9,104 bases of DNA, taken from assembly GCA_020724025.1 (NCBI GenBank), contig DYHU01000090.1, positions 1 through 9,104 on the forward strand, written 5' to 3'. Shown piece after piece: positions 1,329-6,721 of the stretch. Numbering within the stretch: position 1 is the stretch's first letter; each line of letters begins with the position of its first letter. Made by a program: the position numbers and the translations under genes. A model generated the notes under the pieces. It saw only the letters and a program-made list of their open reading frames with translations, was not told where the DNA came from and ran no database searches. This DNA is from Syntrophorhabdus sp. GTDB lineage: Bacteria > Desulfobacterota > BSN033 > UBA1163.

Positions 1329-1403
1329 TGGAGCCCACGGACGGATTTGAACCGCCAACCCGCTGATTACAAATCAGCAGCTCTACCATTGAGCTACGTG
1401 GGC
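1329..1403 (-). tRNA. tRNA-Thr (anticodon UGU)
   Basis: The reverse complement folds as a complete tRNA. The acceptor arm is GCCCACG/CGTGGGC, the D arm contains AGCTC...GAGCT, and the anticodon arm is CTGATTTGTAATCAG with anticodon TGT. The T arm contains GGTTCAAATCC. The discriminator base is U, and 3' CCA is encoded (1331-1329). The gene stands alone, without the Tyr, Gly or Trp tRNAs or tuf that often accompany tRNA-Thr. Its 3' end faces the degenerate island-like region at 1-1284. Confidence 0.97.
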
Positions 1404-1577: not shown

Positions 1578-3185
1578 TTATCTCCTCTTTTCTTCAATAG
1601 CCTTCTCCAAAAGTTTAACGCCTTCCTGCGAGGCGTTGATGGACTGTGCCAAAGATTCTCTTGCCTGCTGGGGATTATGGAAGCCATCGCTGTTTTCGGC
1701 AGTCCACCATTCCCATAAAATGTGAGCCTTGTCATGGAATGGCCAGATCTCTTTCAGTTTTTCTTCACCCACCCCCAGGTCCTTCGCCCGAACATAGGTT
1801 TCGATTAACTGTCCTAACCAGTACTCGGCTTTTCTCATCTTTCCCCGGAGGTAATTCTGAATGGCATCGACCTGATATTCTGCCTCTTCCTGAGTCCAGG
1901 ATTTGTGGCAGCGGACACAGGTGTCTCTCAGCATGTACCTTGCGCTCCGCTGTCCATGGTAAGTGAAGGATTTTCCTTTTTTATCCTTCACCTTTGGCAT
2001 ATGGCAATCCTTGCACTCCACTCCGGCCCGTTCATGTTTGCTTCCCCAGAAGGTTTCAACTTCCGGGTGCTGGAGTTTGGTCAGGGGAGCACCGGTTATC
2101 CCATGTCTGAAGTCCTTGAAGCTGATATCGGCATATCTCTTCTGGATGTCAAAGACATTGACCCATGGGAAGTAGTTGGCTCTCCGATCGTCCATCCCAA
2201 TGACGGCCCCGGTCTTCGGATCAAATCCCGGATTGCAATTATATTCGACATGGCACTGAGCACATAGAAGGTTGGAGTCCGGCTTGTTGAGGACGCCAAT
2301 GGCCCTGAAGGGTTTCCCATCCCGTTGGAATTCGATTTTTGTCATCAAAACTTTTTTACTCTTTTCTTTATCATAAGGATAGGTTCCCTCTCCACGGTCC
2401 ACAACGGTCTGGATCAAAGCATCCCGTATCACTCTTGGTTTCGCCGCATGGGGATCGTGGCAATGGATGCATCCCATCGGGTTTTTGAGATACTTTTTAG
2501 CCATCTCAATGGCGGCTGGATTTCCTCCCCTCTTCAAATCCGTTGCCGGATGGGAATCGCCCATATAAGGCCACTTCAGGATGGTATCCGTGGTCTTACA
2601 GGTCATGCAGACCGTATTAGCCGCTTTGGCTGTCTGGGGGAGTTCTTTTCCGGTATCATAGACGACATCCCAGAGTTTCCCTGTCTTTGTAATATCCTTC
2701 CAGTTTTTTAATTGGAATCTTCCGCCATAGGCCCGGTCTACCAGGAAATGGTCGGTGAGCATGAACACATGGGATCGTGGCTCGTCATGCTCCTTGGTGA
2801 AAGCATGAGGGGTCATCAGTTTATCAAAGGTGGGAGACCGGCTTGTGGTGGTGGCCTTCTCGACCTTTGCCTTTGATTTCAGATTGACCGACAGGAGGGT
2901 CTCGTATTGAGAAGGATGACACTGGCCGCAGAGGGATAGTTCGAGATTTGTTCCGGGGAGTTTTTCGGGGTCCTTGAGGTGCTCGGCCAGTTTGCTGTGG
3001 CATTTTGCACAGGAGAGAGAAGCATGTTTGCCATCCACCTTAAGGGATTTGATATCTTCATGGCATTGGTAACAGGCCAGCTCTTCTTTCGGGATCGTCA
3101 CCTTCTTGGAGTGGGCGGATGAGAGGTAGAAGAGGAAGGAGAGAAGAGATAATGCCAGAACCAAAAAAAGTCCTTTTCTGAACAT
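1578..3185 (-). CDS. Octahaem cytochrome c nitrite reductase (ONR/TvNiR type)
   Basis: A periplasmic enzyme reducing nitrite to ammonium with six electrons. Residues 1-26 are a Sec signal peptide. Haem sites are CYQCH 38, CAKCH 59, CGQCH 86, CMTCK 193, CIHCH 239, CAQCH 308, CKDCH 391 and CVRCH 423. The single CxxCK marks the Lys-ligated catalytic haem, as in NrfA, here preceded by three extra haems as in octahaem reductases. NrfA-like active-site parts are visible: HVEY with Tyr315, KLQHPE with Lys370, Gln372 and His373, HMPK after haem 7, and probably Arg137. Cys317, two after Tyr315, matches the Tyr-Cys crosslink pair of the Thioalkalivibrio enzyme and is absent from pentahaem NrfA. The 535-residue length fits ONR. 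AGGAGG lies 7 bases before the ATG. No NrfH-type quinol dehydrogenase is in the window. A hydroxylamine or other multihaem oxidoreductase is less likely because of the CxxCK. Confidence 0.93.
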   Translation of the reverse strand: MFRKGLFLVLALSLLSFLFYLSSAHSKKVTIPKEELACYQCHEDIKSLKVDGKHASLSCAKCHSKLAEHLKDPEKLPGTNLELSLCGQCHPSQYETLLSVNLKSKAKVEKATTTSRSPTFDKLMTPHAFTKEHDEPRSHVFMLTDHFLVDRAYGGRFQLKNWKDITKTGKLWDVVYDTGKELPQTAKAANTVCMTCKTTDTILKWPYMGDSHPATDLKRGGNPAAIEMAKKYLKNPMGCIHCHDPHAAKPRVIRDALIQTVVDRGEGTYPYDKEKSKKVLMTKIEFQRDGKPFRAIGVLNKPDSNLLCAQCHVEYNCNPGFDPKTGAVIGMDDRRANYFPWVNVFDIQKRYADISFKDFRHGITGAPLTKLQHPEVETFWGSKHERAGVECKDCHMPKVKDKKGKSFTYHGQRSARYMLRDTCVRCHKSWTQEEAEYQVDAIQNYLRGKMRKAEYWLGQLIETYVRAKDLGVGEEKLKEIWPFHDKAHILWEWWTAENSDGFHNPQQARESLAQSINASQEGVKLLEKAIEEKRR

Positions 3186-3301: not shown

Positions 3302-3391
3302 TTATTTCGGTCCTGCCAGCAGAATGACGATCGTCCATCCAAAGAGGAGGACCATAAAAGTGATGAATTGTCTGACCAATTGGGGATCCAT
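3302..3391 (-). CDS. 29-residue single-span membrane peptide upstream of ONR
   Basis: Not a recognised family. The frame runs from ATG at 3391 (minus) to TAA at 3304-3302. It begins MDPQLVRQFITFMVLLF and ends GWTIVILLAGPK. A short polar N-terminus is followed by one hydrophobic helix (about residues 9-26) and a tiny charged tail, the layout of small accessory subunits of membrane respiratory complexes. AAGGAGC stands 4 bases before the ATG, a convincing ribosome binding site. It is the first gene upstream of the octahaem nitrite reductase on the same strand, 116 bases away, so the two may share a transcript. A role as membrane anchor or small partner of the cytochrome or its electron donor is inference; an unrelated small membrane protein or a leader peptide are alternatives. 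Confidence 0.6.
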   Translation of the reverse strand: MDPQLVRQFITFMVLLFGWTIVILLAGPK

Positions 3392-3416
3392 AAAAGCTCC
3401 TTCTCTCCAGAGATTG

Positions 3417-3445: not shown

Positions 3446-3742
3446 ATCCCCCCCCTTTGCTAAACTGATCCTTACCCATAAGTGGGGGCGCTGGACACAA
3501 GGGTTAAGTTTAATGTTGTTAACAGGTTGATATCATTATTAATTTTTAAGTTTGTCATTCCTGCGGAAGCAGGAATCCAGATGTTTCTATTGGTCCTGGA
3601 TTCCCGTTTTCACGGGAATGACACCAAAATACGAAATGCAAAACCTTCAATTACACCGGTCATGCCCCCTTCCTTGTGCCCAGCCACCTGACTTATGGGA
3701 CACGATCAGTTTGCTAAAGGGGGGAAAGGGGGAATTTGGAAG
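3439..3742. mobile_element. MITE-like element with about 65-bp terminal inverted repeats
   Basis: The left arm (3439-3502) and right arm (3672-3742) are imperfect inverted copies. Both contain TTTGCTAAA with a C- or G-rich run outside it, then (A/G)CTGATC or GATCAG, CATAAG or CTTATG, and inside these GCTGGACACAAGG against CCTTGTGCCCAGC. Together they enclose about 170 bases holding the REP pair at 3554-3622. No transposase frame is present. It fills most of the gene-free stretch 3392-3830. The rest of that stretch, 3743-3830, shows only a 7-bp inverted repeat TTTCATG/CATGAAA (3743-3749/3771-3777) and a T-run at about 3784-3792, possibly a weak terminator. Confidence 0.6.
3554..3622. repeat. 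REP-like inverted pair, copy 2
   Basis: Two 27-base arms (3554-3580 and 3596-3622) are inverted copies around a 15-base spacer. They start GTCATTCC and end GGAATGAC on the plus strand, and each contains its own small hairpin (CCTGC/GCAGG and CCCGT/ACGGG). It is the same class as the repeat at 1063-1114 and lies inside the larger inverted-repeat element. Confidence 0.8.
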
Positions 3743-3830
3743 TTTCATGGTTCGAGGGTAACAACTCCGTCATGAAAGATTGCCTTTTTTTTGGAGATGA
3801 TGTATTGAACATCTAACCCCTGTGCCTATT

Positions 3831-4622
3831 ATGAAAAATTTCAGAAATTATTTCAAGAAGGAAAGATCGAGATCCTGGCTGATCCTCTTCCTTCCGTTCC
3901 TCCTCTTTGCTTTTGACTCTTATGCGGGATCGATCAGGGAAGTCTCCCAGAATATTGAGCGTGTCAAAGCGGTTATCTCTCCTCTTCAGTTCGCTGTGCT
4001 CGGGGATAGCCGGGACGGAGAAAAGGTCTATACCCGGCTGGTGGAAAAAATCCTTGAGCGGAAGCCTGATTTCATCATCCATCTGGGGGATATGATCAGC
4101 AAACCTGATGGAAAAGAATGGCGACAGTTTTTCGATCTCTCAAGACCAATCACCGTCCCCTTTTTCCCGGTCGCCGGAAACCATGATGTGGGTATTAGCT
4201 CCCGGGGAGAAGAGATGTACAGAAAGCAGTTCCTTCTCCCGGAAGGGAAAGCCTACTATTCGTTTCGGGCGGGGCAAGGGTTTTTCATCATCCTGGATTC
4301 GGAGAAAGGGAAGGGAGGGGCGGATAGCTTCAAAAAGGGAGGAGGAATGGATAAATACCCTTCCGATCGAGATCAACTCCATCAGCTCTTCGCAAAGGCG
4401 AAGATGAATGCTGTCTTTGCGGGAGACGATCACCGGTATGATCGAAGAGAGAAGGATGGCATTCTTTATATTATCACCGGAGGAGGAGGCGCACCCCTCC
4501 ATCCGTTTAAAGAGAGAGGAGGATATTTCCATTATGTCTGGGTCTCGGTCCAGGCCGACAGGATCGAAGGGGAAGTCGTCGATCTGGAGGGGGAAGTTCG
4601 AGATCAGTTCATCATCAAATGA
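3831..4622 (+). CDS. Exported calcineurin-like metallophosphoesterase, active site incomplete
   Basis: From the ATG at 3831 the protein has 263 residues; a GTG three codons earlier is possible, and neither has a strong ribosome binding site. Residues 1-32 are a signal peptide (LILFLPFLLFAFDSYA), so it acts outside the cytoplasm. The family motifs appear in order: LGDSRD (57-62), HLGDM (84-88), AGNHD (115-119) and AGDDH (197-201), then a C-terminal TGGGGAPL typical of secreted purple-acid-phosphatase-like members. Two features are odd. The usual GHxH has become GDDH, and the segment between FFIILDS (151-157) and the GDDH motif is shorter than normal and lacks the H-x-P motif that supplies a metal ligand. 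It may bind one metal, have changed substrate, or be decaying. The substrate is unknown. The next plus-strand gene follows after 109 bases. Confidence 0.8.
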   Translation: MKNFRNYFKKERSRSWLILFLPFLLFAFDSYAGSIREVSQNIERVKAVISPLQFAVLGDSRDGEKVYTRLVEKILERKPDFIIHLGDMISKPDGKEWRQFFDLSRPITVPFFPVAGNHDVGISSRGEEMYRKQFLLPEGKAYYSFRAGQGFFIILDSEKGKGGADSFKKGGGMDKYPSDRDQLHQLFAKAKMNAVFAGDDHRYDRREKDGILYIITGGGGAPLHPFKERGGYFHYVWVSVQADRIEGEVVDLEGEVRDQFIIK

Positions 4623-4651: not shown

Positions 4652-4711
4652 GATCAATGACCAATGAACAATCATCAATGACAATTGATTATTGACCATT
4701 GCCCATTGATC
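4652..4711. repeat. 60-base near-palindrome of CAATG-type repeats
   Basis: GATCAATGACCAATG... (from 4652) and ...CCATTGCCCATTGATC (to 4711) fold into one long imperfect hairpin with its centre near 4681. It lies between the phosphoesterase stop and the ribosome binding site of the next gene. Part of the sequence is a run of degenerate ATCAATGA units. It may end or stabilise transcripts, or be a dispersed repeat. Confidence 0.65.
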
Positions 4712-4731
4712 TTTTCAGAAGGAGGGATCAT

Positions 4732-5031
4732 ATGGGTTTAGGATTGGCTCTAATCGTGATGGGAGTGCTGATCTTCCTGGATCGGATGGGAACGGGTTAT
4801 GGGTTAAGAGAAGGATGGCCCTGGGTGGTGGTTGCCCTTGGGATAGGAGGCCTTTTTCGAAACCGGAGAAGTATCGCTGCCTGGGTGACCACGGTCATCG
4901 GAATCTTGATCCTGGGTGGGAAATATTACTCCATCCACATTTCGGTTCCGGGTGTGGTCAGAATCTATTTTCTTCCGGTTCTTCTGATCACCATCGGTCT
5001 CCTCTGGCTTTTGAGACATAAAAAGGATTGA
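4732..5031 (+). CDS. Four-helix membrane protein, LiaI/LiaF-like region
   Basis: The start at ATG 4732 is fixed by AAGGAGG 9 bases upstream; an in-frame TTG at 4699 has no such site and lies in the palindrome. The 99-residue protein is almost wholly hydrophobic, with four segments: about 1-17 (LGLALIVMGVLIFL), 27-42 (WPWVVVALGIGGLF), 46-64 (AAWVTTVIGILILGG) and 72-93 (IYFLPVLLITIGLLWLL). Its end is basic (RHKKD). The pattern of G(L/I)xLIxxGxLxFLD followed by WPxxxxxxGxxxLF resembles the N-terminal LiaI-LiaF-like membrane region found in envelope-stress and anti-sigma-associated proteins. The C-terminal LiaF domain is absent. The specific role is unknown; it may be co-transcribed with the phosphoesterase if the intervening hairpin is read through. 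Confidence 0.7.
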   Translation: MGLGLALIVMGVLIFLDRMGTGYGLREGWPWVVVALGIGGLFRNRRSIAAWVTTVIGILILGGKYYSIHISVPGVVRIYFLPVLLITIGLLWLLRHKKD

Positions 5032-5210
5032 GAGGACGATGAACAATGGACGATGAACTGTGAACTATAGACGAGGAACAAAGGAATTCCGGGATAATGG
5101 AAGATTGGAATAATGGAATATTGGGCAAAACCAAAAGGAAGAAGTTTTTTAAACCCATCATTTGAGCCTTCCAATGGATTTGGTTCATCGTTTAACGTTC
5201 ATCGTTCTCC
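5032..5210. repeat. Inverted pair of ACGATGAAC repeats between convergent genes
   Basis: The left arm 5032-5058 carries two GACGATGAAC units. The right arm 5183-5210 is its inverted copy, GTTCATCGTTTAACGTTCATCG. Between them are further short imperfect repeats such as GGAATAATGGAATATTGG. The right arm overlaps the 3' end of the cupin gene and supplies its last codons and stop. The stretch 5032-5191 holds no gene that can be supported. Confidence 0.6.
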
Positions 5211-5560
5211 GGATTGTTGGTTGGAATGAGTCCCGCTACCACCAGGATCGTGAGATCCTCATCTCCTATATTGGTTAACTCATGAAATTGGCCGATGGGG
5301 ATATGGATGGCGTCTCCTGGTCCAACCTCACACACCTCATCACCGACCTGCATACGGCCCAGGCCTTTTTGTATGATATAGATCTCCTCCATGGGATCGA
5401 CATGGCCAAGAAGTTTATTCCCCGGAGGGACTGAGGCGTGAGCTAAAAACATCAGGGTTTGCAGATGGCGGGTATCGAGAATCATGTGGGCGATGCCTCC
5501 CCTATGAGCCACGTAACGTGTCATCTTCACTTCGGGATGTGTCAAGTTGCGGAGTATCAT
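5192..5560 (-). CDS. Small single-domain cupin protein
   Basis: 122 residues forming one cupin_2 beta barrel. Motif 1 reads GHVDPMEEIYIIQKG (52-66), with His53, Asp55 instead of the second His, and Glu58/Glu59 as likely metal ligands. Motif 2 reads GDAIHIPIGQFHELTN (82-97), a perfect match to the G(X)5PXG(X)2H(X)3N pattern with His93 as ligand. Such stand-alone cupins bind a divalent metal and act as isomerases, dioxygenases or sugar-binding sensors; the substrate cannot be told. GAAGGA lies 8 bases before the ATG. It is downstream of the nitronate monooxygenase-like gene on the same strand, 126 bases away, so a shared transcript is possible. The final residues (ENDER) and stop lie in an ATGAAC-type repeat, so the original C-terminus may have been replaced. 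Confidence 0.85.
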   Translation of the reverse strand: MILRNLTHPEVKMTRYVAHRGGIAHMILDTRHLQTLMFLAHASVPPGNKLLGHVDPMEEIYIIQKGLGRMQVGDEVCEVGPGDAIHIPIGQFHELTNIGDEDLTILVVAGLIPTNNPENDER

Positions 5561-5686: not shown

Positions 5687-6721
5687 TTAGGAGGCCATTT
5701 TTTTACTAACCGACTCCAGCAATTCCTGGGCCTCTGCAACGGTTCGCTCAATCAGTTCTTTGCAGGTTGGTAAATCTTTTATTAAACCGATGGCCTGACT
5801 TATAGGCAACACTCCAGTCTCTAAATCGCCACTCTCAATTGCGACCTTCAGCCCTTTTAGGCCAAGCGCCTGGCGAGCCAGGTCCTGAACACCCCGCTGC
5901 TTGAGCCCCCCCAAGAAAAGCTTATAAAAGGGAACATCGATCATGCGTTTAATTTGGAGGGCGCTGGAGAAGGCCTGGAAGAGTGACGGTCTCCCCTCTG
6001 CCATCTTGATGGAGGCCGGATTTTTGAGCCATCTCCCGGGCAAACCGTCGATCTTGTCCGAGCAGAGGGTATCTTCCATCCCTGCTTTCAGAGAAAGCTC
6101 TTTTGTTTTTTCGTGCATTTCGCATTCCTGGGTTAGCATGAACCGGGTTCCCATGGAGATTCCATCCGCCCCCAGAACCAGAGCGGCTGCCAATCCCCTG
6201 CCATCGCAAAAACCACCGGCCGCAATAACGGGAACTTTTGTTTGACGGGCAATCGAAGGGATTAAGACCAATGTGCCTACCTCGGCTCCGTGGGCTGCGG
6301 CCTCATGGCCTGTTACCACCAGGGCATCTGCTCCATCCATCTCTGCTCTACGAGCATGTTTCTCTATGGCAACCGTTGCCAAAACCTTCCCGCCATATTG
6401 ATGGACCGCTTTAATGATCCAATCCCCCTTCCCCAACGCATAATTTATAATCGGGACTTTTTCTTCAAGAGCGATCTCAATATTTTCTCTCGCATTGGGC
6501 ATGACCAAAGTGGCATTTACTCCAAAGGGTTTATCCGTGAGGGATTTCACCTGTTTAATCACTTCTCTTACCTGGTCCGGCGTATAAGCGACGGAATTCA
6601 ACATTCCGATCCCTCCGGCATTTGACACCGAGGCAACGAGTTTTGGTAAACTGATGAAAGCCATTCCGGCGAGCATGATGGGATGCTTGATTCCTAAGAG
6701 CTCAGTCATTCTCGTTTTCAT
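5687..6721 (-). CDS. Nitronate monooxygenase / FabK-like FMN flavoprotein
   Basis: 344 residues of a TIM-barrel FMN protein of the 2-nitropropane dioxygenase (nitronate monooxygenase) family, which also includes enoyl-ACP reductase II (FabK). Visible motifs are NAGGIGML (34-41), FGVNATL (66-72), TGHEAAAHG (137-145) with His144 at the catalytic position, VIAAGGFCDGRGLAAALVLG (165-184) for phosphate and FMN binding, and ISMGTRF (188-194). It is probably cytoplasmic; no signal is seen. It oxidises toxic nitronates, or reduces enoyl-ACP if FabK-like; the sequence alone does not separate these, and no fatty-acid genes are near. The usual QGPM near the N-terminus is LAGM here. AGGAGGAG stands 6 bases before the ATG. 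The cupin gene follows on the same strand. Upstream lies a shared 155-base divergent region. Confidence 0.88.
   Translation of the reverse strand: MKTRMTELLGIKHPIMLAGMAFISLPKLVASVSNAGGIGMLNSVAYTPDQVREVIKQVKSLTDKPFGVNATLVMPNARENIEIALEEKVPIINYALGKGDWIIKAVHQYGGKVLATVAIEKHARRAEMDGADALVVTGHEAAAHGAEVGTLVLIPSIARQTKVPVIAAGGFCDGRGLAAALVLGADGISMGTRFMLTQECEMHEKTKELSLKAGMEDTLCSDKIDGLPGRWLKNPASIKMAEGRPSLFQAFSSALQIKRMIDVPFYKLFLGGLKQRGVQDLARQALGLKGLKVAIESGDLETGVLPISQAIGLIKDLPTCKELIERTVAEAQELLESVSKKMAS

Follow-up and report, generated by a model that had tools for sequence, protein, structure and literature searches.

A lineage-specific 29-residue peptide gene upstream of an octaheme nitrite reductase gene in Syntrophorhabdus: a probable single-pass inner-membrane protein

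Introduction

The small subunits of cytochrome bd oxidase, CydX, CydY and CydZ, are described in PMC4325964 as short, frequently unannotated proteins in which few residues are invariant, and CydX, which has 37 residues, is encoded in the cydABX operon. AcrZ appears in PMC7267776 as a small transmembrane modulator of AcrB, and NrfH is presented in PMC8840924 and PMC12285233 as the membrane partner of NrfA and a tetraheme quinol dehydrogenase.

Here, we compare these systems with a 29-codon gene in a stretch of DNA from Syntrophorhabdus sp.; the window is the whole stretch of 9,104 nucleotides that was analyzed. AcrZ serves as a working analogy, in that a small transmembrane protein would act on a larger membrane protein. 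The likeness to NrfH lies in a hydrophobic membrane helix beside a nitrite reductase; however, NrfH is tetraheme in the cited accounts, whereas the peptide lacks a heme motif and does not consistently accompany the reductase. In contrast to CydX, which the cited account places in the cydABX operon, the peptide gene appears to stand in its own unit, and the octaheme nitrite reductase (ONR) gene is not constant beside it. None of the nine window frames scanned with Pfam matched CydA or CydB; the neighbors in relatives were grouped by clustering.

Results

Coding evidence for the small gene

The gene and its ribosome site lie on the minus strand of the window.

3302..3391, minus strand: 29-codon gene for the predicted small membrane protein, ATG to TAA; product MDPQLVRQFITFMVLLFGWTIVILLAGPK
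3397..3401, minus strand: Shine-Dalgarno sequence AGGAG, 5 nt ahead of the small-gene ATG

An earlier note on this DNA had described a complete ATG-to-TAA frame and a strong ribosome binding site, and had proposed conservation with synonymous bias as a check; the description was borne out, and the bias was observed. The frame runs through 29 codons at 3391-3302 of the minus strand, with AGGAG 5 nt before the ATG. Across 16 loci (the window and 15 genomes), it has exactly 29 codons with ATG and a stop in every case, and a Shine-Dalgarno-like purine run is present 4 to 9 nt ahead of the ATG in all 16. The pN/pS ratio over these loci was 0.27 in the peptide frame, compared with 1.12 and 1.85 when the two remaining sense frames were read, and pairwise differences by codon position were 714:349:1377. 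In eight disjoint pairs, pN/pS was 0.23 against a neutral-simulation mean of 0.84, and none of 500 simulations was as low. The fixed 29 codons and the pN/pS of 0.27 are those of a short coding frame under purifying selection, and this substitution pattern marks the frame as a genuine, coding gene. A chance frame was ruled out by the fixed length, start, stop and Shine-Dalgarno run, together with the codon-position bias and the neutral simulations.

The antisense frame of the peptide gene is open in 15 of the 16 loci and showed a pN/pS of 0.39. This openness and this value are expected of the mirror of a true frame, and the reading as an antisense gene was rejected on a comparison of substitution bias, which is weaker in the mirror frame (0.39) than in the sense frame (0.27).

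The suggestion that gene callers overlook the peptide held in part; the gene is sometimes predicted, under the name 'hypothetical protein', and 55 of the best 120 of 246 matching predicted proteins are exactly 29 residues long. Text searches of the literature, which is not searchable by sequence, returned no recognizable account of this peptide.

Distribution and gene neighborhood

A profile search found the peptide in 15 of the 17 genomes of the family, with one copy in each; the order group contains the same 17 genomes. The neighbors of the gene in the window are as follows.

1329..1403, minus strand: tRNA-Thr(TGT), on the same strand as and downstream of the peptide gene in 11 of 16 loci, including the window
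1578..3185, minus strand: octaheme nitrite reductase (ONR), Pfam Cytochrom_C552; a neighbor outside the conserved unit of the small gene
3822..4622, plus strand: divergent metallophosphoesterase, present in 5 of 16 loci, including the window
4699..5031, plus strand: divergent LiaF-TM domain protein, present at 13 of 16 loci and in 13 of the 15 peptide-bearing genomes
5192..5560, minus strand: cupin gene, the upstream neighbor in 13 of 16 loci
5687..6721, minus strand: nitronate-monooxygenase-like (NMO-like) gene; 12 of 16 loci have its orthologue upstream, at an identity of about 81% or higher

The cupin gene, the NMO-like gene, LiaF-TM and tRNA-Thr are steadier neighbors of the peptide than ONR is. 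The NMO-like rows of two loci (L123 and L120) were left out of the neighbor count because they are paralogues at 32-35% identity. LiaF-TM was found in 13 of the 17 lineage genomes, all 13 of them peptide-bearing, and in none of six further genomes of the class; in two genomes (G006 and G015), the locus that holds the peptide is assembled, and LiaF-TM was not matched. Downstream of the peptide gene, the 16 loci carry ONR (seven), an ONR remnant (one), tRNA-Thr within about 80-300 nt (five; L118, L119, L120, L122 and L125) or other frames (three). The last group comprises L121, in which a 405-codon frame lies between the peptide gene and tRNA-Thr, and L123 and L124, which have no tRNA within about 6 kb. 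Among the loci in which tRNA-Thr was not seen, two have none in about 6 kb and three have under 2 kb of downstream sequence. In the window, Rfam at gathering thresholds gave only tRNA matches.

Two genomes of the family gave no peptide. In G020, the contig stops 169 nt beyond the NMO-like neighbor. In G017, neither the NMO-like neighbor nor LiaF-TM was matched either, so a gap and a true absence look alike there, and G017 may truly be without the peptide. The genomes recorded for the peptide lineage are metagenome-assembled, with completeness not given.

In a phylum sample of 395 genomes, the peptide profile matched 11 lineage genomes and gave two weak matches outside the lineage. The match in G148 (E 0.007) is a 15-residue piece inside a 233-residue frame. 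The other is a 16-residue stretch in a 168-residue frame (L159; G393:C21:37194-37241, minus strand), which matched the profile at E 7e-4, probably by chance. Within the class, a match in G024 (E 0.02) likewise covers part of a longer frame, of 246 residues. Collections of phages and plasmids contained no peptide match.

A hydrophobic helix with a conserved face

As the earlier note had proposed, the window peptide contains one hydrophobic helix, with a best 19-residue Kyte-Doolittle mean of 2.43 from residue 9; the corresponding means were 2.3-2.9 in all 16 peptides. Residues 1-9 carry a net charge of 0 to +2 and the last residue is K, a weak topology signal. With K/R at positions 4 and 7, the N-terminus is probably cytoplasmic, and the peptide is probably a single membrane-inserted helix in this orientation.

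An alignment of 63 rows, 61 of them different, revealed eleven invariant positions: M1, L5, F9, F12, L16, F17, W19, T20, L24, G27 and K29. Variability over residues 5-27 followed the helical period, with 86 of 5000 shuffles as high for the 63 rows; the first 16 rows had given a p of 0.08, which was not significant, and the helical-face signal is best described as modest. Seven of the nine invariant positions within residues 5-27 (L5, F9, F12, L16, F17, T20 and L24) lie within 60 degrees of one direction, while W19 and G27 lie off this face. One conserved face is the pattern expected of a helix packed against a partner.

Comparison with known families

No model in Pfam or NCBIfam was over its cut-off for the peptide, including Pfam on the 63 rows, and PDB sequences gave no match to the 16-row peptide profile at E 10. 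Weak matches to Imm_superinfect, PRRSV_2b, DUF3930, TatA_B_E, LPAM_1 and a mycoplasma family (best E 0.0084) were rejected as hydrophobic noise. The superinfection immunity protein PF14373 was likewise rejected: the window peptide scored 14.4 bits (E 0.037) against a cut-off of 27.9 bits, and 14 of the 63 rows matched it weakly (best E 0.0088).

By eye, the peptide resembles PspC (PF04024), in that DPxLVR is followed by a hydrophobic helix. Three members of the peptide family, of 29-32 residues (P0171, P0188 and P0199), were named 'phage shock protein PspC' by JGI; these were the three PspC names among the best 120 of 246 matches, and the rest of the JGI-named proteins were called hypothetical protein. 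The resemblance was examined with Pfam on the peptides, with PF04024 in the lineage and in 297 phylum genomes, and with a profile comparison by hhalign against 13 PspC rows, from which L226 and L227 had been dropped as wrong-frame noise. PF04024 matched none of the 63 peptide rows and was over its cut-off in none of the 17 lineage genomes. The program hhalign aligned the peptide and PspC in the DPxLVR register; 29 of 100 full shuffles and 78 of 100 helix-only shuffles scored as high. PspC membership was thus supported by neither Pfam, the lineage scan nor the profile comparison, and because the latter was no better than shuffles we have not filed the peptide under PspC.

Promoter, leader and insertion

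The region upstream of the small gene in the window contains the following elements.

3828..3856, minus strand: conserved sigma-70-type promoter TTGAAA-17-CATAAT of the small gene, beginning 465 nt upstream of the ATG
3780..3808, plus strand: conserved block downstream of the small-gene promoter, which by inspection resembles a divergent promoter TTGCCT-17-TATTGA directed toward the plus-strand genes
3450..3724, no strand assigned: MITE-like insertion with 53-nt imperfect inverted arms, between the promoter and the ribosome site
3553-3623: REP-like hairpin nested within the MITE-like element, from the window sequence

Fifteen of 16 loci have an exact promoter motif (12 of 12 positions, with the spacer at 17 nt), and L123 has 9 of 12. 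With 30 shuffles for each locus, the highest match was 9-11 of 12. The hexamers had been taken from an alignment. In the window, the motif falls at the beginning of the divergent phosphoesterase gene, and loci lacking this gene have an equally exact copy. The exact promoters start at -109 to -126 in ten loci and at -209 to -465 in five, and inserts of about 95-350 nt occur in the leader of five of the 16 loci. The distance of 465 nt in the window is due to the MITE-like insertion in its leader, and the ten loci with the promoter 109-126 nt before the ATG have no such insert. At L126, similar hairpin sequence was seen by eye upstream of the peptide in the alignment.

The block at 3780..3808 scored higher than any shuffle in 14 of 16 loci; L121 and L128 were the exceptions. 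As L128 is without both divergent genes and L121 has LiaF-TM, this pattern neither supports nor refutes the reading as a divergent promoter. Two apparently overlapping divergent promoters, the second recognized by eye, would occupy 3780-3856 of the window, separating the small gene from the phosphoesterase and LiaF-TM genes, and recur in most lineage loci. The small gene appears to be a one-gene unit with its own promoter, perhaps read on into ONR at those loci that have ONR downstream.

Relation to the octaheme nitrite reductase

In the window, the ONR gene lies downstream of the peptide gene on the same strand after a gap of 116 nt. The nitrite reductase that the earlier note had placed there is a true ONR relative, with a best phmmer E-value of 1.8e-178 to chains of eight-heme nitrite reductases in the PDB. 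The same note had suggested that the peptide could be an anchor or accessory subunit in an electron transfer chain based on this enzyme, and had proposed conservation of the frame beside ONR genes as the test. Of 80 fetched ONR loci, 33 were scored over the upstream 1.2 kb or as far as the contig reached. The peptide frame was found at the six closest ONR loci, with scores of 114-142, but at none of the other 27, where the best score, 49, fell far upstream in a longer frame. The four ONR carriers next in similarity (68-72% identity) gave no peptide, apart from two weak partial matches in long frames (E 0.18 and 0.57).

Seen from the peptide, ONR lies beside it in six of 15 carrier genomes, plus the window, and is missing from the spot in the other nine. 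In three of these carriers, the sole ONR is a distant one (59-62% identity) on another contig; in six, there was no ONR at E 1e-30 and no match to the Cytochrom_C552 family at E 1e-5. Since these are metagenome assemblies with no completeness given, failure to find ONR elsewhere in a genome can reflect a gap in the assembly; the peptide spot itself is assembled in the carriers scored as lacking ONR. In the six ONR-less genomes, pN/pS of the peptide was 0.30 (0.28 without G011), a little above the 0.23 found beside ONR; three disjoint pairs of ONR-less genomes gave 0.25, and none of 500 neutral simulations was as low. Trees of neighboring genes were poorly supported, with ONR-linked and ONR-less loci intermixed.

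One locus (L126, in G011:C128) retains ONR as a remnant, cut to its first and last parts with the last part in another frame; the local scores of 72 and 66 exceed a shuffle maximum of 55. This remnant arose by internal deletion. The peptide gene of G011 is intact beside the remnant and tRNA-Thr, as are its promoter and ribosome site, and its product is the most divergent, with 48% identity to that of the window and the highest pairwise pN/pS of the 15 (0.55).

Because the peptide persists where the neighboring ONR is gone, it is probably not part of the ONR enzyme. ONR and the peptide separate in both directions, which leaves the anchor or subunit reading of the earlier note unsupported: ONR adjoins in six of 15 carriers, the Cytochrom_C552 family is unmatched in six of 15, and the next four ONR carriers have no peptide. 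Co-occurrence with joint loss was not the pattern observed, and ONR subunit membership was rejected by distribution.

Discussion

The reading that we consider probable is that the product is a 29-residue protein, specific to this lineage, that crosses the inner membrane once, is expressed from its own promoter as a one-gene unit and packs with its conserved face on a larger membrane protein. The sigma-70-type promoter would drive the small gene as a one-gene unit, and the product would insert in the inner membrane as one helix. The face formed by L5, F9, F12/M13, L16, T20 and L24 would then pack against a larger membrane protein; the putative partner would be one that is always present in the lineage, and the peptide would steady or tune it, as CydX and AcrZ do theirs. 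We infer this packing from conservation alone. By gene order, the nearest partner candidate is the divergent LiaF-TM protein, with two peptide-bearing genomes giving no LiaF-TM match, and the peptide could also act without a partner. As judged by its sequences, the peptide is a new small-membrane-protein family of a known general kind, with a putative function.

Four other explanations were weighed against the distribution and sequence data. A dedicated anchor or accessory subunit that brings the periplasmic ONR to the quinol-oxidizing side of the membrane, with the ONR-less copies being leftovers or serving another cytochrome, would fit the position of the peptide gene, which immediately precedes ONR on the same strand in the window and at the six closest ONR loci. 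The G011 remnant indicates that the pair may be old in the lineage, the peptide is most divergent (48% identity; pN/pS 0.55) where ONR is broken, and the group ratio is slightly lower beside ONR (0.23 against 0.30). However, the peptide is still constrained (0.30; 0.28 without G011) in the six of 15 carriers lacking a Cytochrom_C552-family match, is missing from the next four ONR carriers and has its own conserved promoter motif, and the ONR translation, by inspection, has a hydrophobic N-terminal segment of its own; we regard this explanation as unlikely. Regulation of the downstream gene by a leader peptide (upstream ORF), through ribosome stalling or translational coupling, is very improbable. 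The short frame with a good Shine-Dalgarno sequence 116 nt ahead of ONR is compatible with it, and the peptide-ONR spacer has a slightly more stable fold than shuffled sequences (z -1.8; equalled by 11 of 200), but the downstream content varies (ONR in seven of 16 loci, a remnant in one, tRNA-Thr in five and other frames in three), and conservation covers the whole peptide and extends little beyond it.

The type I toxin TisB also has 29 residues. A membrane-active type I-like toxin or stress peptide, silenced by a small RNA or by a long leader, would share with our peptide its size, single helix, basic residues, good Shine-Dalgarno sequence and own promoter motif, and the leader is about 80-100 nt where it is free of inserts. 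Such a toxin is at odds with the presence of a single gene copy, at a constant locus, in 15 of 17 genomes, with eleven invariant residues and with the lack of matches in the phage and plasmid collections; in five of 16 loci, inserts of about 95-350 nt are tolerated in the leader, and the window gave only tRNA matches in Rfam at gathering thresholds. We give this reading the same low standing as the ONR anchor. A pairing of the peptide with the divergent LiaF-TM protein in a cell-envelope stress or membrane-regulatory module seems unlikely. LiaF-TM is confined to peptide-bearing genomes here (13 of 17, and none of six further class genomes), its gene is found upstream, in divergent orientation, at 13 of 16 loci, the conserved block nearby reads by eye as a divergent promoter, and JGI gave the PspC name to three of the best 120 of 246 peptide matches. 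Against this, G006 and G015 carry the peptide at an assembled locus and gave no LiaF-TM match, PspC membership was not supported, and the phosphoesterase gene separates the two in five of 16 loci. A more specific version is quite unlikely: here, the peptide and LiaF-TM would form a minimal two-gene envelope-stress module, with the peptide as a pared-down sensor or tuning helix standing in for PspC and ONR merely occupying the gap before tRNA-Thr. Its backdrop is that PspC is over the cut-off in none of the 17 lineage genomes.

With 63 aligned rows, eleven invariant positions, its own promoter motif and a presence in 15 of 17 lineage genomes, the 29-residue family is well defined. Should a partner of the probable inner-membrane protein be found, it would show how a helix of fewer than 30 residues selects and tunes a membrane complex through one face. 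The case also illustrates that an attractive guess from gene neighborhood, here a respiratory subunit, can fail once the presence and absence of the neighbor are checked.

A second type of ONR, 59-62% identical to that of the window, was observed elsewhere in the genomes G002, G013, G014 and G016 (L114-L117), and G002 carries both types.
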